Shown piece by piece: positions 2,581 to 32,101 of a DNA stretch of 45,425 nt (the stretch's first letter is position 1; every line of letters begins with the position of its first letter). The stretch comes from a virus, in IMG/VR virus record IMGVR_UViG_3300023223_000914, positions 1-45,425 of that record; one strand, given 5' to 3'. The notes beneath the pieces are model-generated. The model was not told the DNA's origin. It did not search any database and saw only the letters and a list, made by a program, of their open reading frames with translations. The translations under genes and the position numbers were made by a program.

Positions 2581-2849
2581 GAACGTGCCCTAAATGTAAT
2601 ATGACAACACTTGTTAACACGCACAGTTCACACGGTTGGAACTGTGCGTACTGCGGTGCGTGGCTGACACCCAAATCAGTGCAAAGAGATCTTCATCCCT
2701 GCCCGTTTTGTGGTGAAAAACCCCAACTGTTTGAACCAAGTCGTGGCCTTTTTACTCTCCGGCATAAATGCCTGGCTATCAAAGCAGACATAAAACCCGG
2801 GCCGCTTAAAAATGTAATAGCCCGATGGAATTGCCGTGATGACTGCTAG
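2577..2849 (+). CDS. Double zinc-ribbon protein, Lar-like
   Basis: A 90-residue protein with three CxxC knuckles: CPKC and CAYC in the first half, CPFC near residue 42. The second half (HPCPFCGEKP, a downstream Cys and a final ARWNCR) follows the layout of the Lar family of phage restriction-alleviation proteins, where CPFCG-x-P is followed by a W-N at the end. Lar in Rac prophage dampens type I restriction by enhancing host modification. Position directly after a DNA methyltransferase fits an anti-restriction role, but the family contains many small zinc ribbons of unknown function, so the role is inferred. Confidence 0.6.
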   Translation: MRTCPKCNMTTLVNTHSSHGWNCAYCGAWLTPKSVQRDLHPCPFCGEKPQLFEPSRGLFTLRHKCLAIKADIKPGPLKNVIARWNCRDDC

Positions 2850-3411
2850 AATTTCAGTCCTTACGCTTGTTGCACTTGATCCCGACTCACAGGGAAAAGG
2901 CCGGATATTGTCTTGTCTGCCTCATGGCGATACTGATTTTCGCGTACTACGCAATATGCATGATTTGCAGGGATGCTCATCGTCTGATCTGCTGTGGGCG
3001 CTCCCCCATTCAACATTGACGAATGCCGAGGTTAAGCTGGTTGCCGTTAGATTTGCAACATTTTGTGCAAGGAAAGTACTGCCGTTATTCGAAGAGACTC
3101 ATCCGCGTGATAACAGGCCACGTAGGGCGATTGAATCAGCGGAGTATTGGATAGCAACCGGACAAATCCCTACAACGGCTGTTGCACAGGATGCGGATCG
3201 TTCAGCAAAAACCACGCGTTACCTCAGAACGCGCTACGCTGAAGCTGCTGCATACCATTCTGTATATGCAGCAGCTTCAGCGCCTGGATGGGCTGCCGCA
3301 CACTTTGCCACTGCCGCCCAATCTGCAGCAAAGCATGCGTTGGGGTTAGGACAAGATCATGAGTTATATCGAAAACGTTTAAACACAATATTACAAGAGG
3401 CAGGACAATGA
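2839..3411 (+). CDS. Imm5-like alpha-helical protein, copy 1
   Basis: About 190 residues. The central part has the signature FCARKVLPLFEETHPRD followed by RPRRAIESAEYW, which I recognise as that of the Imm5 immunity-protein family (CAERVLPLFE...DDRPRxAIEAAxxW). After it comes an alanine-rich helical tail. Two paralogues lie at 8179-8838 and 8841-9302 and share W(T/A)LP, F(A/V)xFCA and RPR(K/R)A. In polymorphic toxin systems Imm5 neutralises a partner toxin; no toxin is visible here. The codon before ATG 2839 is GTG, so either could start it; both overlap the zinc-ribbon gene. A later ATG at 2956 would remove a poorly conserved N-terminus. Confidence 0.6.
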   Translation: MTARISVLTLVALDPDSQGKGRILSCLPHGDTDFRVLRNMHDLQGCSSSDLLWALPHSTLTNAEVKLVAVRFATFCARKVLPLFEETHPRDNRPRRAIESAEYWIATGQIPTTAVAQDADRSAKTTRYLRTRYAEAAAYHSVYAAASAPGWAAAHFATAAQSAAKHALGLGQDHELYRKRLNTILQEAGQ

Positions 3412-3788
3412 ATCTAAAAGACATACGTGAAAACCGCGACATTATGAAAATGATTTTTAAAGCTGAGATAACAGGTGCCGATGTACAAGTACGAAGTAGG
3501 AGCGCTGATCGCATATGGGCAAAGTTAACTGATAATGAAAACCATGATTTTGACACTAGTTTATATGAATATCGCATTGACCCTAAAAAGACCGTGACAT
3601 ACACCACAATATATTTCGATCAGCATAAGGAGGCAGAGACTGATGAAATGTTTGATACGATGGAGGAGGCGTTAAGGCTACGTGAACGCCACCCTTGCTT
3701 AGGCCTTCTGACGGTTACGAATATAGAAGGTATAAAAATTACTGCCACCTTCACACCGTGGAAGGAACTGCCTCATGTACCAAGATAG
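3408..3788 (+). CDS. Conserved phage protein of unknown function
   Basis: A 126-residue soluble protein that I cannot assign. It starts with IRENRDIMKMIFKAEITG, has a middle section rich in acidic residues and aromatic strands, and ends in ATFTPWKELPHVPR. A decayed relative follows at 4038-4219, sharing the N-terminal helix and the ATFTP tail but missing the middle. The start overlaps the Imm5-like gene by four bases (ATGA) and the end overlaps the next gene by 14 bases, so it is part of the rightward operon. Confidence 0.6.
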   Translation: MNLKDIRENRDIMKMIFKAEITGADVQVRSRSADRIWAKLTDNENHDFDTSLYEYRIDPKKTVTYTTIYFDQHKEAETDEMFDTMEEALRLRERHPCLGLLTVTNIEGIKITATFTPWKELPHVPR

Positions 3789-4898: not shown

Positions 4899-5173
4899 TC
4901 ATCGGCTCCTATCACATCTAATAGCCATTTGGAAAGTTGGAGAATATGCCTACGATCCAAAATTACTGCATTGAAGCTCTCGGCCCCATCTACACTTAGA
5001 CCTATGCATTTTGAACCGTGACAACCACCTACTTCGATTGTCAGCTCTCCTATTTTAATTTTGTCTGGCGTAATAACATCTATTTTGTGTGGTATTGATA
5101 CGACATTTCTTGCCGGCGCGAAACTGCAGATATACCGGCCAAGTTTCAGTAAGAACTTTTCACGTTTGTTCAT
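4895..5173 (-). CDS. Hypothetical protein in replication operon
   Basis: A 92-residue protein starting MNKREKFLLKLGRYICSF, with a basic N-terminal helix and a beta-rich middle (IKIGELTIEVGGCHGSKCIGLSV region), ending in a helix (HILQLSKWLLDVIG). No family recognised. Its first codons resemble those of the next small gene (MNKRE), a hint of a local duplication of the start region. It is coupled by ATGA to the PrimPol-helicase gene upstream and to the 49-codon gene downstream. Confidence 0.6.
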   Translation of the reverse strand: MNKREKFLLKLGRYICSFAPARNVVSIPHKIDVITPDKIKIGELTIEVGGCHGSKCIGLSVDGAESFNAVILDRRHILQLSKWLLDVIGADE

Positions 5174-7614
5174 GGTTCATCCTTTCTGGGATTGAGTTGT
5201 ATGACTTGAGCAGGGGTAAAGGCGGCAGCTGTGCCTTCCTGTCGCAGCGTTAGGCCTTTGTATCCACGGAATTGCTTCACTGCATCAGCTAGACGATGTC
5301 GGCCATACTTGCAGCCTTTGCCGCGTACAGCTGAGGTAAATGCCGAGGTAAATGGACGCCTCATTAGCACGTTATCCTCACGATTACCTATCGCCCATTT
5401 TAAGTAGGCATCATAAATATCTGCAGATGAGACAACGTTATCCCCGCCAAGCGTGCAGGTCTCTTCAATAAATTCATTCAGAGGGCTGTACGCCTCAGCG
5501 ATGTTGTGCGTCTCTACTTGGCTGGCCTGGGGCATCGTAAATCGACCGTTGGCGCTCAGCCTGGCTAGCCCTTGTAGCGACCATGCCCCTATGCCCTCAA
5601 TCTCAGTCAACAACCGGCCGGTTAACAAGGTATCCTCTCTGCCTAGAAAACTGACATCAAAAGGCAGCACCATCATTCGTGAAGCCAGTGCGCCTGAGTC
5701 ATCAAATAAATTCGGGATTTGATTAGCGGCAACGGCAACGCGGGTAGGCAATGTCGTGGACATAGTGGGTTTATATTTGCGGGCAAAAATCACTTTATCA
5801 TCACCGCTAATACTCTTCAAACGCTCAATCACATTGTCGATAGCAAACCGATTAATGCGCTTGGCCGCATCGCCAATAAACATCACAGGCTTGTTGCGTA
5901 GGCTGTCCATAAACGGGTCTGAGTTGAATGCCAGTAGACTGCCCCCGCTAAAGTTTTGCGTGCCAACAACGTGTTCCAGTACCCGTCCTACGGTACCCTT
6001 ACCACTGCGGGCAGGACCCAATAAGAATAGAACCTTATGGTGGATATAGCTGGATGACAACATATAGCCAAACCACTCCTGTAACAGGTCTACGCGTTCC
6101 TGATCCCCCTCGAATACCTCGTAAAGAAATGCCAGCCATTGGTTAGCTAATTTCGTAGGGTCGTAGCAATAGGGGAGGATATTGGTTGTAAAGTACTCCG
6201 GAGAGTGGGGCAGTAACTGACCGGTATATAGATCCAGCACCCCGTTATCAAACAGTATCAGGTTGCCGGGGATATCTGCACCGCAGCGTTTATTGATGTG
6301 CACCAGTTTAGTCAGGATGCTATAGGTGCCGTTGATGACGCTGTCCTGCGGTGCGCTGGGCAGCATATCCAGCATGAGCTGATGTGATACGTCATCATCC
6401 GGTGCTTCTTCCCAGGCCTTGCCGTTGTAGGCGTACCATAGCTGATCAGAGCGCACGAGGCTCCCATCCGGATAATGTGTGGCCACAAACTGTAGGGCAT
6501 TTTCGGTATGGTTCTTGCCATACATGCCAGGAATTTTGCCATCAATGCGCGTTAAGCTGTCGAGCCTATCGGATATCTTTTTATCCAACACCCCCTCTGA
6601 TTTGAGCGCTGCTTTGAGCGCCAGGGATAGCAGGTCACGTTGCAGCGCATTGCAGCCTGAGTTGTGAATAGCCTCTACAATGGCAACGGTTTGCCCAATG
6701 TCGGTCCCCGATTCGTGAATACGGGTAACCAGGGCATTAAATATCTCGACGGAGGCTGCACCCGCGCCGAAGGCTAATGCCGTGTCGATACCCGCAGGGG
6801 GCTGCCAGCCGGCCGCTATGGCGATATAAAATAGGGTGGCTATAGTGATGCCACCTTCTGGTTTAAACGACATAAAATCGCTGTACATCCTTTCACTGAC
6901 GTAATTATGCGGACAGCCATCGGGCCAAAGCTCCCCGCTTGACCATTGATCGAAAATTGCATAGCCGGTTTGCTCATCATCATGGAACTGATGGCGCAGA
7001 GCTAAGCCTATTTTTAGCCACGTACCGCGCCCACAACCGGGATCGATATGCCGTAAGGCCTCAACGATGGAATCAACATCTTTATCGCCTACCGGCAGTG
7101 TCGTTTGTGCGGGAACATGAAAAACCTGCTCAAATACTGCACGGCAGGCATCAGGTAACCTGGGCAGAGAGCCGGGAAACGCAAAAGCAAACACGCCAAA
7201 GGCCAAGGGGGTATAACCCTCCCCCGTACAGACGTAGCCCTTACCCCCAACCCGGGTATCCAGGCCTCTAATGCCGGCAATGTCAGAATTTTGAATGACA
7301 GGCCAATCTACGCTAAACGCGTAGTGCTGTCCGCCATGCATGGTGGTCTGAATCATGGCCATATCCCATGGCAAAGCGCAACCCACCAGCTGTTCGACGT
7401 GTTCACGGGTGACGCCCTTATAAGTATCTAAGTCGATAACAACCGCGCCGAGAGGTACCGGTACGCCAATAACCGGTGAAGGCCAGGCGTTTTCTTCAGG
7501 GGGTCGTTGCGCGTAGATATTCCAGTCTTCACCCTTACGGACGGCGGGGCATTTATTGGCGTAACAAGGAAATACCGATATGCCAGCTGCATAGAGCTGG
7601 CTAGCGAGTTGCAT
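5170..7614 (-). CDS. PrimPol-SF3 helicase replication protein
   Basis: An 814-residue replication protein joining a primase-polymerase and a hexameric helicase. From ATG 7614: the PrimPol domain spans about 1-165, with metal ligands in VIDLDTYKG (Asp61, Asp63), GGQH at 94-97 and GLDTR at 118-121. A PriCT-2-like region follows near 180-270. A D5_N/P4-type region begins near 380, and the SF3 helicase carries Walker A GPARSGKGT (533-541), Walker B-like VMFIGDA (577-583), motif C VAVAANQIPN (626-635) and an arginine at 646. It would unwind the origin and lay primers. ATG 7614 has GGAG eight bases upstream; an earlier TTG (7644) and ATG (7638) are possible. It overlaps the HTH gene by 14 bases. 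Confidence 0.92.
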   Translation of the reverse strand: MQLASQLYAAGISVFPCYANKCPAVRKGEDWNIYAQRPPEENAWPSPVIGVPVPLGAVVIDLDTYKGVTREHVEQLVGCALPWDMAMIQTTMHGGQHYAFSVDWPVIQNSDIAGIRGLDTRVGGKGYVCTGEGYTPLAFGVFAFAFPGSLPRLPDACRAVFEQVFHVPAQTTLPVGDKDVDSIVEALRHIDPGCGRGTWLKIGLALRHQFHDDEQTGYAIFDQWSSGELWPDGCPHNYVSERMYSDFMSFKPEGGITIATLFYIAIAAGWQPPAGIDTALAFGAGAASVEIFNALVTRIHESGTDIGQTVAIVEAIHNSGCNALQRDLLSLALKAALKSEGVLDKKISDRLDSLTRIDGKIPGMYGKNHTENALQFVATHYPDGSLVRSDQLWYAYNGKAWEEAPDDDVSHQLMLDMLPSAPQDSVINGTYSILTKLVHINKRCGADIPGNLILFDNGVLDLYTGQLLPHSPEYFTTNILPYCYDPTKLANQWLAFLYEVFEGDQERVDLLQEWFGYMLSSSYIHHKVLFLLGPARSGKGTVGRVLEHVVGTQNFSGGSLLAFNSDPFMDSLRNKPVMFIGDAAKRINRFAIDNVIERLKSISGDDKVIFARKYKPTMSTTLPTRVAVAANQIPNLFDDSGALASRMMVLPFDVSFLGREDTLLTGRLLTEIEGIGAWSLQGLARLSANGRFTMPQASQVETHNIAEAYSPLNEFIEETCTLGGDNVVSSADIYDAYLKWAIGNREDNVLMRRPFTSAFTSAVRGKGCKYGRHRLADAVKQFRGYKGLTLRQEGTAAAFTPAQVIQLNPRKDEP

Positions 7615-7783
7615 CCAGCACACTCCGTTCAATGACATCTTCAAGGCTTTGACTGTAAATACGGATGCACTTACGACCTAGCCTTATGGCTTTAAGGTCT
7701 CCGCGTTCAATCATGTTGTAGATTTGCTTGCGGGTTACATTTAATCGTTCTGCAGCTTCTATAGGCTTTAGAAATTCGGACAT
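7601..7783 (-). CDS. Excisionase/MerR-type HTH DNA-binding protein
   Basis: A 60-residue protein that is almost entirely one winged helix-turn-helix domain of the excisionase (HTH_17) type: FLKPIEAAERLNVTRKQIYN carries the helix-turn-helix and IERGDLKAIRLGRKCIRI the wing. It is the first gene of the leftward replication operon and overlaps the PrimPol gene. An AGGA lies nine bases before ATG 7783. The upstream promoter is covered by an inverted repeat, so it could be an autoregulator or bind the iteron region as a replication accessory factor. Those roles are inferred from position; a recombination-directionality role is less likely as no integrase is seen. Confidence 0.8.
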   Translation of the reverse strand: MSEFLKPIEAAERLNVTRKQIYNMIERGDLKAIRLGRKCIRIYSQSLEDVIERSVLDATR

Positions 7784-7804
7784 CTATCCATTTCCTGTAT
7801 TTAA

Positions 7805-7842
7805 GACATAGTAATCATAGACGCCGTTTTATACTATGTCAA
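7805..7842 (-). promoter_or_regulatory. Leftward sigma-70 promoter with overlapping inverted repeat
   Basis: On the minus strand, TTGACA (7842-7837) is followed after 17 bases by TATGAT (7819-7814), a near-consensus promoter that would start close to 7807, 24 bases before the HTH gene. A 9-bp inverted repeat, GACATAGTA at 7805-7813 and TACTATGTC at 7832-7840, overlaps the -35 box and flanks the -10 box. This geometry is that of a repressor operator. Confidence 0.75.
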
Positions 7843-7843
7843 C

Positions 7844-8109
7844 CGTCACTCATGCGTCACACAGCTTTTCTACAGAACGTCACAAAGCTGAGGCGTTAAT
7901 GAGGCAACATGACTTTGTGACGTTAGTGACGTTCTGGTGACGCTTCTGTGACGCTATGAAAAGGGCCTTTAGGCCTTACCGCATATAGCGTTGTGACGGT
8001 GTGACGTTCTATCTTTGTTAAAGTATATAAATATTAAAGTATATAAATAATAGGTAAAATATAATATATACATAACGTATAGACACTAGAACGTCACTAA
8101 CGTCACAAA
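7844..8109. repeat. Iteron-like GTGACG/CGTCAC cluster, probable replication origin
   Basis: Eleven copies of the hexamer CGTCAC or its complement fall in 266 bases. As CGTCAC they start at 7844, 7855, 7878, 8092 and 8101; as GTGACG at 7917, 7926, 7937, 7948, 7993 and 8001. Neighbouring copies are mostly 8-11 bases apart, about one helical turn. A longer form, AGAACGTCAC or its complement, occurs at 7874, 7926, 8001 and 8088; AACGTCACAAA or its complement at 7876, 7914 and 8099. The cluster is beside the PrimPol-helicase operon and flanks an AT-rich repeat, as in iteron origins. It could instead be a multi-site operator. Confidence 0.65.
8018..8080. repeat. AT-rich 16-bp tandem repeat, candidate unwinding element
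   Basis: TTAAAGTATATAAATA occurs twice in perfect tandem at 8018-8033 and 8034-8049, followed by further A/T-rich sequence to about 8080, including TATAAT at 8060-8065. It lies between iteron groups. It fits a DNA-unwinding element; the TATAAT could also be a rightward -10 box, though no good -35 box precedes it. Confidence 0.55.
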
Positions 8110-8152
8110 TGTGAGCTACCTGGCTGTGAGACAGGCTGACTGCTGGGGGCTT

Positions 8153-8174
8153 TAACTCGAGAACAGACGAGTTA
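8153..8174 (+). promoter_or_regulatory. Hairpin just before the 8179 start codon
   Basis: TAACTCG at 8153-8159 pairs perfectly with CGAGTTA at 8168-8174 across an eight-base loop. It ends four bases before ATG 8179, where a ribosome site would be, and no good Shine-Dalgarno is visible. It may regulate translation, or mean that the later ATG 8290 is the real start. There is no T-run, so it is not a terminator. Confidence 0.35.
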
Positions 8175-8178
8175 CGAA

Positions 8179-8838
8179 ATGGTACGTATCGTATCTAAAT
8201 GCTGTGTGTCTGTAAGAAGAATATTCTTTGACGAGCAGGCTAAAAGGTTCTATATTCCATATACACTTATCGGCAAGAGAGCGTCAGAAATGCAAAACCA
8301 GACAAATGTCCTGCCTATGAATTTTGATTCTTATGATCTTTTCTGGACGCTCCCCGCCTCTGATCTGACCGAAAAACAAATAAAGGTTATTGCTATTAAG
8401 TTTGCCGTATTCTGTGCCAAGCGTGCGCTGCCTCTATTCGAGGTTAACCGGCCGAAAGATGACAGACCGCGTAAGGCTATCGGGGTAGCTGAGCTTTGGC
8501 TGTGTCGTAATGCACAAGGTTTTGTTGCAAAGTTGCGTAATTTACGGTGCAAGGGTCACCGTGATGACCCGTATTTAGCCGCTGACGCTGCTGCAGAGGC
8601 CATTGAGGCCCCTGCCGGAAAGGCTGCAGCCCAATCTGCAGGGTGGGCTGGAGATGCTGCACAGTCTGCTGTGAGTGGCAAAGTGAGTACTGTCATATGG
8701 TCTTCGATATGGGCAGCCGAATATGCTGATGATGCGGCGGCATTAGTTTTTGATGAAGGTGCTATGCGAACACGCATACGGCGTGATAACAAAAGGGTAT
8801 GTGTTGAGTACTTAAGTAAACTCATACAGGAGGTTTAA
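8179..8838 (+). CDS. Imm5-like alpha-helical protein, copy 2
   Basis: A paralogue of the proteins at 2839-3411 and 8841-9302. From ATG 8179 it has 219 residues, with DLFWTLPASDLTEKQIKVIA, then FAVFCAKRALPLFEVNRP and RPRKAIGVAELWL, the Imm5-type core, then a long alanine-rich helical tail. The first 37 residues have no counterpart in copy 3; ATG 8290 (residue 38) would give a 182-residue protein whose N-terminus matches copy 3 in length and has GAGAG upstream. It is the first rightward gene after the origin region and is followed two bases later by copy 3. Immunity to a toxin, or inhibition of a host factor, is possible but no partner is visible. Confidence 0.6.
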   Translation: MVRIVSKCCVSVRRIFFDEQAKRFYIPYTLIGKRASEMQNQTNVLPMNFDSYDLFWTLPASDLTEKQIKVIAIKFAVFCAKRALPLFEVNRPKDDRPRKAIGVAELWLCRNAQGFVAKLRNLRCKGHRDDPYLAADAAAEAIEAPAGKAAAQSAGWAGDAAQSAVSGKVSTVIWSSIWAAEYADDAAALVFDEGAMRTRIRRDNKRVCVEYLSKLIQEV

Positions 8839-8840
8839 GC

Positions 8841-9302
8841 ATGTTAGGACCGACGTGTAAATACAAAGGTGATACATGCGAAATCTCTCAGGCATTATGG
8901 GCGCTTATACGTTCAGATCGAAGTGACGAACGTATTAAATATATCGCCGTTAAGTTTGCGGTGTTCTGTGCCAATGAACTGGCGCTACCGGTTTTTAAAG
9001 ATGTGGAGCCTGGTGATTACCGCCCGCGAAAAGCTGTTGAAGCCGCAGAGCGTTGGCTGTCTGACGGTACCCGTCCTACTAAAAACGTAAGGGATGATGC
9101 GGTCATGGCGGCACAATGCGCTAAGACAGATCTGCCTGCCTGGTCAGCGGTTTCTGCGCTTATTGCTGCAACATCCTGGTCTGCTGATGCGGCTGTATCC
9201 GCTACCGTTTCTACGCTTTTGACTGCGATAGCCGCGCAGCCAACAGATGACAGAAACGCCGCCAAGGATAGATGCCAAGATTATTTAAACACGTTGTTGT
9301 GA
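8841..9302 (+). CDS. Imm5-like alpha-helical protein, copy 3
   Basis: A 153-residue protein, the shortest of three paralogues. It has WALIRSD, then IAVKFAVFCANELALPVFKD, then RPRKAVEAAERWL, followed by an Ala/Ser/Thr-rich helical tail and a final QDYLNTLL that matches the ends of the other two (RKRLNTILQEA and VEYLSKLIQEV). AGGAGGT lies upstream of ATG 8841, which follows the stop of copy 2 directly. The conserved core and divergent tails look like paralogues adapting to different partners. The family name is from memory of the motif; the role here is unknown. Confidence 0.6.
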   Translation: MLGPTCKYKGDTCEISQALWALIRSDRSDERIKYIAVKFAVFCANELALPVFKDVEPGDYRPRKAVEAAERWLSDGTRPTKNVRDDAVMAAQCAKTDLPAWSAVSALIAATSWSADAAVSATVSTLLTAIAAQPTDDRNAAKDRCQDYLNTLL

Positions 9303-9578: not shown

Positions 9579-9956
9579 ATGTATATTATTATAAAACATG
9601 CTCTGAATAGGGATTGGCCAGGTGGTTACCCTGGCTGTCCTGGAGCTATTTTTCTGGAGGGGGATATTGTTAGGTATGCAGAGGACCGGGAGGGACTGCT
9701 GAAGATAGAGCACATTGCTAAAAGTGTTTTAACGGGAGAGGAGTTTTGTATCGGCCGCTGTTACTCGGGAGACTATGAGGAGGCATATATAAAACAACTT
9801 ATGCCTGCGTTAACGGGTGATTTAGAGTTATGGCGTGAGTCAGAATGCCTTAGGACGGGCACAGGTGCAATAACTAATGGAATTATGGCTGCAGTTGCGG
9901 GGATCATAGTGGTGCTCGCTGTATCTTATTTTTGTGTTGAGGTAATACCGTTATGA
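9579..9956 (+). CDS. Hypothetical protein with C-terminal membrane anchor
   Basis: A 125-residue protein with a soluble N-terminal part (GDIVRYAEDREGLLKIEHIA region) and one strong membrane segment at the end (about residues 95-122, ITNGIMAAVAGIIVVLAVSY), so it is probably tail-anchored in the inner membrane. GAGGTG lies just upstream of ATG 9579; the GTG at 9573 is a less likely start. Its stop overlaps the dUTPase start (ATGA at 9953-9956), and its last codons carry a 20-bp sequence repeated before the DHH gene. Confidence 0.55.
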   Translation: MYIIIKHALNRDWPGGYPGCPGAIFLEGDIVRYAEDREGLLKIEHIAKSVLTGEEFCIGRCYSGDYEEAYIKQLMPALTGDLELWRESECLRTGTGAITNGIMAAVAGIIVVLAVSYFCVEVIPL

Positions 9957-9957
9957 A
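9938..9957 (+). repeat. 20-bp repeated translation start region, copy 1
   Basis: TGAGGTAATACCGTTATGAA occurs here and again at 10668-10687. Both copies carry a GAGG ribosome site and the ATG of the following gene (dUTPase here, DHH protein at 10683). In this copy the sequence also encodes the end of the upstream protein (EVIPL); in the other it begins in the dUTPase stop codon. It looks like a duplicated or copied start cassette. Confidence 0.7.
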
Positions 9958-10675
9958 CGCAGAACAGCTAAAAGTTATGCTGGATATGCAGTTCCAAATG
10001 AATGCTAAGGTTGACCCTAAGTGGTTGAACAGTCGTTATCCATGGTGGCGTGCGATTTGGATTGAAGCCGCTGAGGGCGTTGAGCACCACGGCTATAAGT
10101 GGTGGAAGAAACAGACGCCCAATCTTCCACAGATCCAAATGGAAATTGTCGATATCTGGCACTTTGGTCTTTCTTTGGTCATACAAACCCGGGCTGACTT
10201 TGATGCGGGTGTAGAAGATATACACGCCAGTTTTACAGATGATCCTGAATTATATGATAGCAGCTTGGCTGATATTGCTAAGGCTATGGTAAGTTTTTGG
10301 CGAGGTGTCAGCATACCTATGCTTGATCAAGAGTGGGTAAAGGATAAGGTAATCGTTTTGGCATTTGAAAGAATAGCTATTGATGCCCTAACTTTGGGGA
10401 CGATTTCAATCAGCGCTTTCGTCTATCTCCTAAAGTTTGCAGAGATGACGTCTGATGACCTTTTTGAAGCCTACATGGCAAAGAACGTTCTAAACTTTTT
10501 CCGCCAAGATAATGGGTACAAAGAGGGCACCTACACCAAGATTTGGAATGGCCGTGAGGACAATGAGTACCTGACGGACATTATGACTGAGTTGCGTGCA
10601 AGTGGCGTTTCGCCTGCTCACTGGAAGGATATAATCTATGATCGTTTGGACACCCTGTATAAAACACTGAGGTAA
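9953..10675 (+). CDS. Dimeric (type 2) dUTP diphosphatase
   Basis: A 240-residue all-alpha NTP pyrophosphatase that should hydrolyse dUTP to dUMP and pyrophosphate, keeping uracil out of DNA and feeding thymidylate synthesis. The metal-binding motif is clear: EAAE at 38-41 (after YPWWRAIWI), then HHGYKWWKK, then EIVDIWHF with Glu64 and Asp67. The C-terminal half has LNFFRQDNGYKEGTYTKIW, typical of the dimeric dUTPase_2 family. It is coupled to the membrane-anchored gene upstream and followed seven bases later by the DHH gene. The thymidylate synthase at 31268-32101 would use its product. Confidence 0.9.
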   Translation: MNAEQLKVMLDMQFQMNAKVDPKWLNSRYPWWRAIWIEAAEGVEHHGYKWWKKQTPNLPQIQMEIVDIWHFGLSLVIQTRADFDAGVEDIHASFTDDPELYDSSLADIAKAMVSFWRGVSIPMLDQEWVKDKVIVLAFERIAIDALTLGTISISAFVYLLKFAEMTSDDLFEAYMAKNVLNFFRQDNGYKEGTYTKIWNGREDNEYLTDIMTELRASGVSPAHWKDIIYDRLDTLYKTLR

Positions 10676-10687
10676 TACCGTTATGAA
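10668..10687 (+). repeat. 20-bp repeated translation start region, copy 2
   Basis: Perfect second copy of TGAGGTAATACCGTTATGAA (first at 9938-9957), spanning the end of the dUTPase gene and the start of the DHH gene. It provides GAGG about eight bases before the ATG. Confidence 0.7.
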
Positions 10688-11528
10688 GAATCCATTTAAA
10701 AAGCCATTATGTATTTATCATGCTAACTGTTCTGACGGCTTCGGTGCGGCCTGTATAGTCAACAAGGCAATACCAGATGGCGTTGAGCTTTACCCTGCCA
10801 GCCACGGTGACGCACCCCCTGATGTGACCGGCCGTAACGTCGTTATGGTGGACTTCTCATATCCTCGCCAGGAAATAACGGCTATGGCTAAGAAGTGTGA
10901 ATATATGCTTATACTGGATCACCACAAAACGGCCGAGACAGCGTTAAAGGGAATTTTCGAGGATGATAAAATCGATGGCATGTTTGATATGGAGCGTTCA
11001 GGCTGCATGATGGCCTGGGAGTGGTTCTTTCCGGATCAAAAGGCGCCTGCACTGGTAGAGCATATACAGGACCGTGATCTATGGCGGTTTCATTTGCAAG
11101 GGACCGATGCAGTGATGGCTGCTGTCTTCTCTTACCCGCAGAACATCGGAACCTGGAGCGTCCTGATGCGCCCTGATGCGTTAGACGGTTTAAATCGAGA
11201 TGGTGCCGCTATTCTTCGGGCACATAATAAGAACATAAAGGATGTTACCAATATTCCAACCCGTCGTATGAAGTTTCAAGGGTATGATGTACCTGTTGCT
11301 AACGTGCCTTTCTACATGGCATCTGATGTAGGGAATGCCTTAAGCCTTGATGAGTTCTTTGCTGGGACATATTACGACTCACTTGAAGGCCGCCACTTTA
11401 GCCTGCGTTCGCAATCAGGAGGTGCGGACGTATCACAGATAGCTGAAGAGTATGGTGGCGGTGGGCATGAACATGCCGCAGGCTTTCTTGCGAAGTTCGA
11501 TGTCCTTCCAGAGAATGGTTGGCTGTAA
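10683..11528 (+). CDS. DHH/DHHA1 family phosphoesterase
   Basis: A 281-residue member of the DHH phosphoesterase superfamily, manganese enzymes that cleave short oligoribonucleotides, cyclic dinucleotides or phosphonucleotides. Visible motifs: HANCSDGFGAA (13-23), VMVDFSYP (54-61), the name motif LDHHKT (78-83), an acidic DRDLW further on, and the DHHA1 signature GGGGHEHAAGF near the C-terminus. It could be a nanoRNase-like recycler of nucleotides or act against cyclic-nucleotide signals used in anti-phage defence; the sequence does not decide between these. It sits with dUTPase and overlaps the next small membrane gene by one base. Confidence 0.85.
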   Translation: MKNPFKKPLCIYHANCSDGFGAACIVNKAIPDGVELYPASHGDAPPDVTGRNVVMVDFSYPRQEITAMAKKCEYMLILDHHKTAETALKGIFEDDKIDGMFDMERSGCMMAWEWFFPDQKAPALVEHIQDRDLWRFHLQGTDAVMAAVFSYPQNIGTWSVLMRPDALDGLNRDGAAILRAHNKNIKDVTNIPTRRMKFQGYDVPVANVPFYMASDVGNALSLDEFFAGTYYDSLEGRHFSLRSQSGGADVSQIAEEYGGGGHEHAAGFLAKFDVLPENGWL

Positions 11529-11674
11529 TGAGTATTTGGGTAGCACTTTATCTTCTTCTTATTCTGGGTATGGGTGGGGCATGTATTACACACTCAGAAG
11601 TCATTGTAATTTTAATCGGCATAGGGATGGGGTTGGTTGGGATTTTTGCTATTGTGATTCAAGTAGGAGGGTAG
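11528..11674 (+). CDS. Tiny membrane protein (48 residues)
   Basis: ATG 11528 overlaps the last base of the DHH stop codon and opens a 48-codon frame ending TAG at 11672-11674. The product begins MSIWVALYLLLILGMGG and is nearly all hydrophobic, with two possible membrane helices separated by ITHSE (residues 20-24). The 3' end contains an AGGAGG that can serve the deformylase gene. It fits a small phage membrane protein; holin, lysis inhibitor or exclusion protein are all possible. Confidence 0.55.
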   Translation: MSIWVALYLLLILGMGGACITHSEVIVILIGIGMGLVGIFAIVIQVGG

Positions 11675-11680
11675 TGGGAG

Positions 11681-12088
11681 ATGCTAACACTCGATGACAG
11701 CGTTCTGCACGACGTAGCCGACGAGGCTGATCCGACAGAGTGTGTGGCACTTATCATACAGATGGTCATTCTGATGAATGAGCTCAATGGTGACGGCCTG
11801 GCAGCCCCACAGGTGGGGGTATCAAAGCGCGTCATCGTGTTTAAGCATAATGGCCAGGATAGGGCTATGATTAACCCTCAGATAACGCGCAGGTACGGAG
11901 ACAGGAAGGCAAAAGTAGAGAGCTGTTTATCCTTTTGGGGCCAGTCTGTTAAAGTGAGGAGAAAAGAGCGAATTGAGACTGTTTTTCTAGATACCAATGG
12001 GTACCAGCACGCTATACGCTATCGGGGTAGGGCAGCCCGTATTATACAACACGAAATCGATCATCTCGACGGGATAACGATCGTGTGA
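11681..12088 (+). CDS. def: Peptide deformylase
   Basis: A 135-residue enzyme that removes the formyl group from the N-terminal methionine of new proteins. The three motifs are present: GDGLAAPQ (37-44), ESCLS with metal-ligand Cys82 (usual form EGCLS, so Ser replaces Gly), and QHEIDH with His124, Glu125 and His128. It ends soon after motif 3 and lacks the long C-terminal helix of bacterial enzymes, as phage versions do. Phage deformylases are known from marine viruses and are thought to sustain processing of phage or photosystem proteins late in infection. It follows a tiny membrane protein and precedes a secreted protein. Confidence 0.92.
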   Translation: MLTLDDSVLHDVADEADPTECVALIIQMVILMNELNGDGLAAPQVGVSKRVIVFKHNGQDRAMINPQITRRYGDRKAKVESCLSFWGQSVKVRRKERIETVFLDTNGYQHAIRYRGRAARIIQHEIDHLDGITIV

Positions 12089-16355: not shown

Positions 16356-17012
16356 TTGTCTGATCTAAGAGAATTGAATTCTGATCAACTTGATTTATTT
16401 AGAAAACTACCAGATTTTGAAAAAGCCCTAGCAATAGCTTTGTTATCAGGTCTGGGGTCTGTGCAGGCCTTTCGACAGGCAAACCCCGCAAGTACAACCC
16501 CCAATGTAAATGCCCGTGTTATCGTCAGCAGAACCCGGGCAAAGCCTGAATTTATGGCGTTTATGGATGCTGTACAGCTGGGTATGGCCAGTATCGCTAT
16601 TATGGACTTTGAAGAGGCTATGGAGAAGTTAACGGTCATTGCCCGCGCCAATCTAGATGAGATGATTACCTATCGCACGGTAGTATTGGGTCAAGATGTT
16701 AAAGGTAATGATATTGAGCAGTCTGTCTGGAAGTTCAATGATTCGTTAACGCAACTGCCTGGCAACATGGAAGCTATCTCTGAATTAAAGTCGGGTGCCA
16801 ATGGCCTATCGATCAAGCTGTATTCAGCGCCTAATGCTATTGCGCAGATGGCTGTTATGCGCGGATGGAATATGGCCGCCAAAGTTGATCTTAAAAGCTC
16901 TGACGGCAGCATGACGCCTAAGCCTGCTGTTACAATAGACACCTCTAAACTATCCAATGAAGCCCTTCTTGAGATAGCCAGTTTGTACTATGCCCCTAAA
17001 GATAACGAATGA
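16356..17012 (+). CDS. Terminase small subunit (putative)
   Basis: A 218-residue protein directly upstream of the terminase large subunit and overlapping it by 23 bases, the usual place for the DNA-recognition subunit. The N-terminal third (FEKALAIALLSGLGSVQAFR, then NVNARVIVSRTRAKPEFMAF) looks like the helix-turn-helix of small terminases that begins with repeated 'grow/extend' helices. The start is a TTG at 16356; an in-frame TAA at 16338 rules out a distant upstream start and no ATG is near, so a rare start (TTG, or ATT 16353) must be used. The weak start may keep this protein scarce. Confidence 0.7.
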   Translation: MSDLRELNSDQLDLFRKLPDFEKALAIALLSGLGSVQAFRQANPASTTPNVNARVIVSRTRAKPEFMAFMDAVQLGMASIAIMDFEEAMEKLTVIARANLDEMITYRTVVLGQDVKGNDIEQSVWKFNDSLTQLPGNMEAISELKSGANGLSIKLYSAPNAIAQMAVMRGWNMAAKVDLKSSDGSMTPKPAVTIDTSKLSNEALLEIASLYYAPKDNE

Positions 17013-31267: not shown

Positions 31268-32101
31268 TTAGATTGCAACCGGTGCTTGGATGCCTGGGTA
31301 CGGATCATAGCCCTTGAGTTTGAAGTCCTCAAAATTATAACCGTAGATAGAATCAGGTTTTCTTTTAATCGTTAGCTTAGGCAAAACCCGTGGCTTACGA
31401 CAGAGTTGCAACTGTACTTGATCCGTGTGATTAAGGTATATGTGGCTATCTCCGATGCTGATAACGATTTCGCCTAGTTCCAGGTCACATTGTTGTGCCA
31501 GCATGTGAGTCAATAGCGCCACGCTGGCAGTATTATAAGGCAGGCCAAGCAGCGAGTCAGAACTACGAATATACACCTGTGTTGATAGCCTATTGTCAAC
31601 AACATAAAATTGATACAGCACGTGGCAGGGTGGTAGGGACATTTTGCCTTGTCTTACATTTGCGTGTGGGGAGAATTTCTCATTTGGGAGGTATTCGACA
31701 TTCCAGCCAGAAAACAGAATACGGCGGCTGTTAGGATTGTTCTTAAGGCAGTCGATTACGTAGTCAATCTGGTTAATTGTCTTACCGTATTTAGTAGGCC
31801 AGGCTGTCCACTGCTTGCCGTAGATAGGACCAAGATCACCATCTTCTAGCGCCCATCCGTTCCAAATAGACACACCGTGTTCTTTCAGCCAAGTGTTGTT
31901 AGTGTTACCACTTAAAAACCAAATCAGTTCGTTAGCGATACTTTTAAAGTGGAGTTTCTTGGTGGTCAGCAGCGGAAAGCCTTCGTTTAAGTCATGTCTG
32001 AATTGGCGTCCAAATACTGAGAGGGTACCGGTGCCTGTCCTATCGCCTTTTACTGTACCGTTTTTGAGAATGTCTTTTAATAAGTCTAAATATATTTTCA
32101 T
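31268..32101 (-). CDS. thyA: Thymidylate synthase (ThyA)
   Basis: A 277-residue enzyme that makes dTMP from dUMP with methylene-tetrahydrofolate. The N-terminal [20 protein letters not shown] is the phosphate-binding loop, [15 protein letters not shown] and GPIYGKQW follow, the catalytic cysteine is in [12 protein letters not shown], and [15 protein letters not shown] binds dUMP. The usual QRSxD is IRSSD, and LPFN is LPYN, mild departures. It complements the dUTPase at 9953-10675, which makes dUMP. It sits in the leftward island with a lipoprotein gene three bases upstream of its start. Confidence 0.95.

Follow-up and report, generated by a model that had tools for sequence, protein, structure and literature searches.

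Gene content of the locus

The window, meaning the whole stretch of DNA that was analysed, is a virus record of 45,425 bases. It lacks terminal repeats and is open at both ends, with a helicase gene truncated at the left. A 395-bp gap (7784-8178) lies between a minus-strand gene for a small DNA-binding protein of the HTH_17/excisionase family (7601..7783), probably the operon regulator, and a plus-strand ORF at 8179. The HTH_17 gene overlaps the minus-strand gene of a PrimPol-SF3 helicase (5170..7644; PriCT_2, D5_N, DUF5906; TIGR01613), which is the proposed initiator. Both genes form one operon downstream of the gap, in agreement with the initial annotation, which had placed the site upstream of a PrimPol-SF3 helicase operon. 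The PrimPol stop overlaps the next ORF, so that no noncoding gap follows it directly. Searches of the window for Rfam families, tRNAs and DnaA boxes (TTWTNCACA) give no match.

Among the ORFs at 2836-3411, 8179-8838 and 8841-9302, two adjacent ones match Imm5_like (PF21805), and those at 2836-3411 and 8841-9302 match phrog_38757. They are possibly paralogues flanking the replication module on both sides. Genes for nucleotide metabolism and translation are present at 9953-12088 and 31268-32101 (dUTPase/MazG-type pyrophosphohydrolase, DHH phosphoesterase, peptide deformylase and thymidylate synthase). The ORF at 1561-2580 encodes a Dcm-type cytosine methylase (TIGR00675), a family that also occurs in a group of phages of about 57 kb described below. 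Methylation of the iterons is conceivable because many of them contain the palindrome GTNAC, which is absent from the iterons of L010, L012 and L036.

A sigma-70-like promoter for the HTH_17/PrimPol operon (TTGACA-17-TATGAT, 11 of 12 matches) is on the minus strand at 7814..7842; chance alone would also produce one such promoter-like site. The promoter is covered by a perfect 9-bp inverted repeat, GACATAGTA (7805-7813) and TACTATGTC (7832-7840), which is a candidate HTH_17 operator (7805..7840). This reading is weak because 37 of 1000 shuffles of the gap contain an equally good inverted repeat. The repeat is weakly preferred to the iterons as the more natural HTH_17 operator.

Iterons and AT-rich tract

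Eleven exact CGTCAC/GTGACG hexamers are present at 7844-8106, the number originally reported. When the gap is shuffled by dinucleotides, the mean is 0.2 hexamers and the maximum is 2. The hexamers also form the densest cluster of the window (11 in 300 bp); in 30 shuffled windows no hexamer exceeds 6. On the plus strand, promoter-side CGTCAC iterons start at 7844, 7855 and 7878 (7844..7883). They are followed by a distal array of minus-strand GTGACG iterons at 7917, 7926, 7937 and 7948 (7917..7953; spacings 9, 11 and 11), and this array is also found in relatives. After a spacer (7954..7992; 45 bp from iteron to iteron), a proximal minus-strand pair at 7993 and 8001 (7993..8006; 8 bp apart) lies on the PrimPol side of the AT-rich tract. 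The far-side pair, on the plus strand at 8092 and 8101 (8092..8106; 9 bp apart), has the opposite orientation to the proximal pair. A 26-bp inverted repeat (96%; 7914-7939 and 8084-8109) is also present, with an iteron pair as each arm and the AT-rich tract between the arms. Four of the hexamers are embedded in AGAACGTCAC or its complement. A hairpin in the 45-bp spacer was considered and is unconvincing, with a combined z of about -2.2 over 20 phages.

The AT-rich tract (8010..8085, 86% AT) is a putative DNA unwinding element. It includes the most AT-rich 70-mer of the window (87% AT, 8011-8083), which in turn contains two plus-strand copies of the 16-bp sequence TTAAAGTATATAAATA (8018-8033 and 8034-8049; together 8018..8049). 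The tandem repeat is perfect, and the embedding of four hexamers is also as first described; two other parts of that description hold only in part. Both sides of the AT-rich repeat are occupied by hexamers but unevenly, with nine on one side and two on the other. The spacings, in order, are 11, 23, 39, 9, 11, 11, 45, 8, 91 and 9, so that a helical-turn spacing applies to only some hexamers.

Domain structure of the PrimPol

The PrimPol matches TIGR01613 (phage/plasmid primase, P4 family) over residues 462-755 with 168.9 bits against a cut-off of 108.7. The PDB sequence match of its profile is the SaPI5 primase-helicase (E 3e-19), and no origin-binding domain is found in it by sequence profile. 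A model of the whole protein reaches moderate quality (mean pLDDT 70.8, pTM 0.39). Modelled alone with AlphaFold (19 sequences), the last 100 residues have the predicted order helix-strand-helix-helix-strand-strand, which is a winged helix, with a core pLDDT of about 92. This domain, at residues about 721-803 (5236..5484, minus strand), is the proposed origin-binding domain.

The best PDB matches of the C-terminal model are RFX1-DBD on the X-box (Z 10.1) and RFX5 (Z 9.8); a viral PrimPol is also among the best solved matches, through its C-terminal part. The origin-binding domain of phage P4 (1KA8) aligns with Z 9.3 and rmsd 2.6 over 82 residues at 21% identity. By predicted fold only, the PrimPol has a C-terminal winged helix like the origin-binding domain of P4 alpha. 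The wing of RFX is the part that reads DNA. The invariant residues R62, G63, Y68 and R81 (model numbering) are at or beside the wing.

Conservation among related phages

The PrimPol scan recovers 15 viral loci with identities of 42-55%, and many more come from a profile scan. Named relatives are Alteromonas phages R9Y1-3, Aeromonas phage AeroV_348, Oceanospirillum phage PD0307 and two Vibrio phages. For one cultured relative, Alteromonas phage vB_AmaS-R9Y2 (laboratory host ATCC 27126), the origin is predicted at about 30.3-30.7 kb of the record. Protein scans of L010 and L012 match only themselves, and that of L006 matches only contigs already known. No phage record is similar to the 1.7-kb region at the DNA level, so conservation was sought in the pattern instead of the sequence. 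An exact search with the window's own iteron pair gives no match elsewhere.

About 20 PrimPol phages, with PrimPols that are 31-55% identical, share the layout upstream of the PrimPol gene. In most full-length relatives, a short word peculiar to the phage is clustered around the most AT-rich stretch upstream of PrimPol. CGTTACA is the word in most, and the others are GTGTTACA, GTGTGACA, CGGTACA, GCGTAGT, GCGTAAC, AAGTGGTCA, GACTACA and AACTACA; CGTCACA also occurs in the PrimPol-phage set. In several relatives the word has AAGYG at its 5' end. A clean iteron array is absent from several relatives (L022, L029 and L056).

Read in the PrimPol direction, the geometry begins with a minus-orientation pair (8-9 bp) and a stretch of 89-103 bp that includes the AT-rich tract, a distance measured at the loci where both pairs are clear. 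A plus-orientation pair (8 or 9 bp), a step of 43-45 bp and a plus-orientation array with 11-12 bp spacing follow. The 43-45 bp step is found at 15 of the 19 loci scored, a count that is descriptive and carries no significance test because motif expressions were picked by eye for each locus and the loci are related. The other four loci have steps of 55 (L015), 54 (L076), 66 (L037) and 131 bp (L021), two of which depart by about one extra helical turn. The geometry is thus mostly kept in relatives, where the initial annotation had suggested looking for conserved hexamer spacing, but the hexamer word itself changes. Across these sequences, the spacing appears to be kept unusually strictly while the word changes; in other respects the site would be ordinary, an iteron origin next to an initiator that loads itself.

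Other repeats also occur in these phages. In L036, about eight tandem GGTTA units (1049-1090) lie in the origin region between two iteron groups. In L057, 16 copies of GCAGTCC (3253-3550), all on the same strand, precede a PrimPol fragment, an arrangement that differs from the iteron layout. A blind search for the densest repeats in three complete relatives finds other repeats and misses the origin; repeat density alone is therefore not diagnostic. The GC-skew check proposed at the outset gives no usable origin signal in three complete relatives, where skew tracks gene direction.

Iteron recognition

The reading of the site as an iteron-type phage origin beside a PrimPol-helicase is the best supported, because most relatives retain the arrangement, the AT-rich element and the position while differing in iteron word. 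On this comparison, the 300-base gap is very likely the phage replication origin. The HTH protein, the helicase and a small operon protein had been named as possible readers of the iterons. The sequence comparisons and fold models narrow this choice to the PrimPol C-terminal winged helix and point away from HTH_17.

In the covariation set of 17 related phage sequences, on which several tests were run, the best correlation is that of iteron distance with C-terminal-domain distance (Mantel r 0.34, p 0.003). The partial correlation with SF3 distance held constant is r 0.26 (p 0.036). These values suggest a modest covariation of domain and iteron. A one-residue code in the wing (YG-X-HR) fitted the relatives compared at first but does not hold for L015, L032 and L037.

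If the iterons were HTH_17 operators, the region would be mainly a regulatory switch between divergent operons. The HTH_17 gene does adjoin the site in most relatives, and a good promoter is present at the edge of the array. However, HTH_17 distance shows no link to iteron distance (r 0.09, p 0.22), and L012, L023 and L054 have iterons and no recognisable HTH_17. The promoter carries another inverted repeat, and an operator has no need of the 89-103 bp layout around an AT-rich tract. This explanation is considered quite unlikely. It is unlikely too that the site is an origin whose iterons are read by another phage or host protein, common to phages without SF3 helicases, with PrimPol recruited later. 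More than 75 loci have AGYGTKACAAGYGTKACAA arrays with AT-rich inner flanks, and among the matches listed D5_N is present in just 9 of 50 records, which speaks for such a reader. Against it, the iteron word varies with the PrimPol C-terminal domain; a comparison of winged-helix profiles found no common candidate near those sites, and the window has no DnaA boxes. Given that the gap is the origin, the PrimPol C-terminal domain is very likely the reader of the iterons.

Occurrence of the arrays outside the PrimPol phages

The search with AGYGTKACAAGYGTKACAA finds at least 120 stretches. At most of the sites listed, the inner side is occupied by an AT-rich tract, often accompanied by an inverted partner. 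Some adjoin other SF3 primases (L138, L168, L189, L262 and L263), and in L262 a second PrimPol family (BT4734-like) has an iteron site directly upstream. DUF5906 is found in 11 of 36 of the matches listed. In the group of phages of about 57 kb, the site is between a cytosine methylase operon and the small terminase gene. Arrays of the AGTGTGACA type with similar geometry are seen there in L253-L261 and L264 (for example G044:C1:52576, G049:C1:36653 and G032:C1:42706), flanked by the C5 methylase operon and by a small terminase gene of phrog_51. No P4-type, DnaB-type or winged-helix relative is recognisable in these phages, whose records may be incomplete. This leaves room in this group for a packaging site or for an unrecognised initiator.

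For the window, it is very unlikely that the site serves packaging (pac/cos) with the small terminase subunit as its reader. The site adjoins the small terminase gene in several relatives as well as in the phages of about 57 kb, and the small terminase of the window belongs to the same PHROG as those site-adjacent ones. In the window, however, that gene (16356-17012) is about 8.2 kb from the site, PrimPol is adjacent, and inverted iteron pairs enclosing an AT-rich element are a hallmark of origins. Phages with the CGTTACA word differ in small terminase family (phrog_51 versus phrog_309/12540). Distance and family mismatch together disfavour the packaging reading for the PrimPol phages, and on the mismatch the small terminase was rejected as the iteron reader. 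Tentatively, and with more doubt than belief, the sites might represent a widespread class of origin in which the distances are fixed (inverted clusters on the two sides of an AT-rich tract, and a distal array at 43-45 bp or, one turn further, at 53-54 bp) and the words are exchangeable. Such a class would be used by several PrimPol-SF3 families and by the phages of about 57 kb, the latter with an initiator of no known helicase family.

Comparison with known replication systems

The alpha protein of phage P4 has primase, SF3 helicase and a C-terminal winged-helix origin-binding domain in one chain. The PrimPol resembles it in combining primase, SF3 helicase and predicted C-terminal winged helix, in the fold match to 1KA8 and in its TIGR01613 score above the cut-off. 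The P4 primase fold differs from the AEP type, whereas the primase here is AEP-type with PriCT_2. No second CGTCAC cluster comparable to P4 crr is seen in the window, which is a fragment.

The SF3 domain is homologous to that of the SaPI5 primase-helicase (7OLA, 7OM0). In SaPI Reps, the C-terminal domain acts on iterons downstream of the gene (PMC7581432). Unlike the SaPI origin, which is directly downstream of rep, the site in the window is upstream, in the same intergenic region as the operon promoter. In SCCmec Cch2, the C-terminal domain mediates binding to direct repeats, and the protein needs an AAGTG iteron for helicase activity (PMC7581432). The likeness to Cch2 lies in the D5-type helicase and in the many phage iterons that start with AAGYG, such as AAGTGGTCA in L036. 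Cch2 differs in that its three iterons follow the gene and its polymerase-primase is separate. The iterons of the window read AACGTCAC or AGCGTCAC, with AACG or AGCG and TCAC; AAGTG iterons are not found in the window and are carried by the relatives L006 and L036.

In the pRN1 ORF904 replicon, as here, a gene for a small DNA-binding repressor precedes the primase-helicase gene. The pRN1 origin, unlike the site described here, is a downstream stem-loop without iterons, and no gap that could hold a large noncoding stem-loop is present directly downstream of PrimPol. The arrangement of iteron plasmids, in which RepA acts with DnaA and a DnaA box lies beside the iterons, is not found in the window. 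Neither is a site beside the small terminase gene, as in terminase pac systems. For an attP with excisionase sites, an HTH_17 gene by itself is no diagnostic feature. By analogy, the best reading is that the origin of the window would work like the P4, SaPI and SCCmec systems, but from an upstream position beside the promoter and with a different geometry.

Proposed model of initiation

Several lines argue for an origin read by PrimPol: the excess of iterons over shuffles around the most AT-rich 70-mer of the window; the same layout, with different words, upstream of PrimPol in about 20 relatives; and the winged-helix fold match with its covariation and the iterons of L012, which lacks HTH_17. 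Homologous SF3 initiators that bind iterons, and the BT4734-like PrimPol family with its upstream site, point the same way. Against it stand the many phages with the same array and no recognisable SF3 helicase, the relatives without a clean array and the four of 19 loci off the 43-45 bp rule. The 21% identity of the 1KA8 match, the negative profile search for an origin-binding domain and the silent GC skew also count against it. Taken together, the sequence and model evidence makes it likely that the gap is the origin and that the adjacent PrimPol-helicase, reading it through its C-terminal winged helix, is the initiator. The literature searched yielded no experimentally mapped origin for any PrimPol phage in this group.

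In the proposed mechanism, the C-terminal winged helix of PrimPol would bind the short iterons. Together with the array lying another 45 bp outward, the oppositely oriented pairs would bring helicase subunits to both sides of the AT-rich tract. The SF3 motors would then melt the tract and load as two oppositely facing rings, and the AEP domain would prime the strands thus exposed. Regulation of the operon by HTH_17 probably takes place at the inverted repeat over the promoter, and the promoter-adjacent iterons may contribute to autoregulation. By analogy with P4 alpha, SaPI Rep and SCCmec Cch2, the best reading is a bidirectional, PrimPol-recognised origin with a new layout.

The testable pieces are PrimPol residues 721-803 and the 300-bp DNA. 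A conserved ruler with changing words is a natural experiment on how the specificities of initiator-helicase and origin change together. If the reading is true, such origins would be findable in other phages through their geometry and not their sequence.
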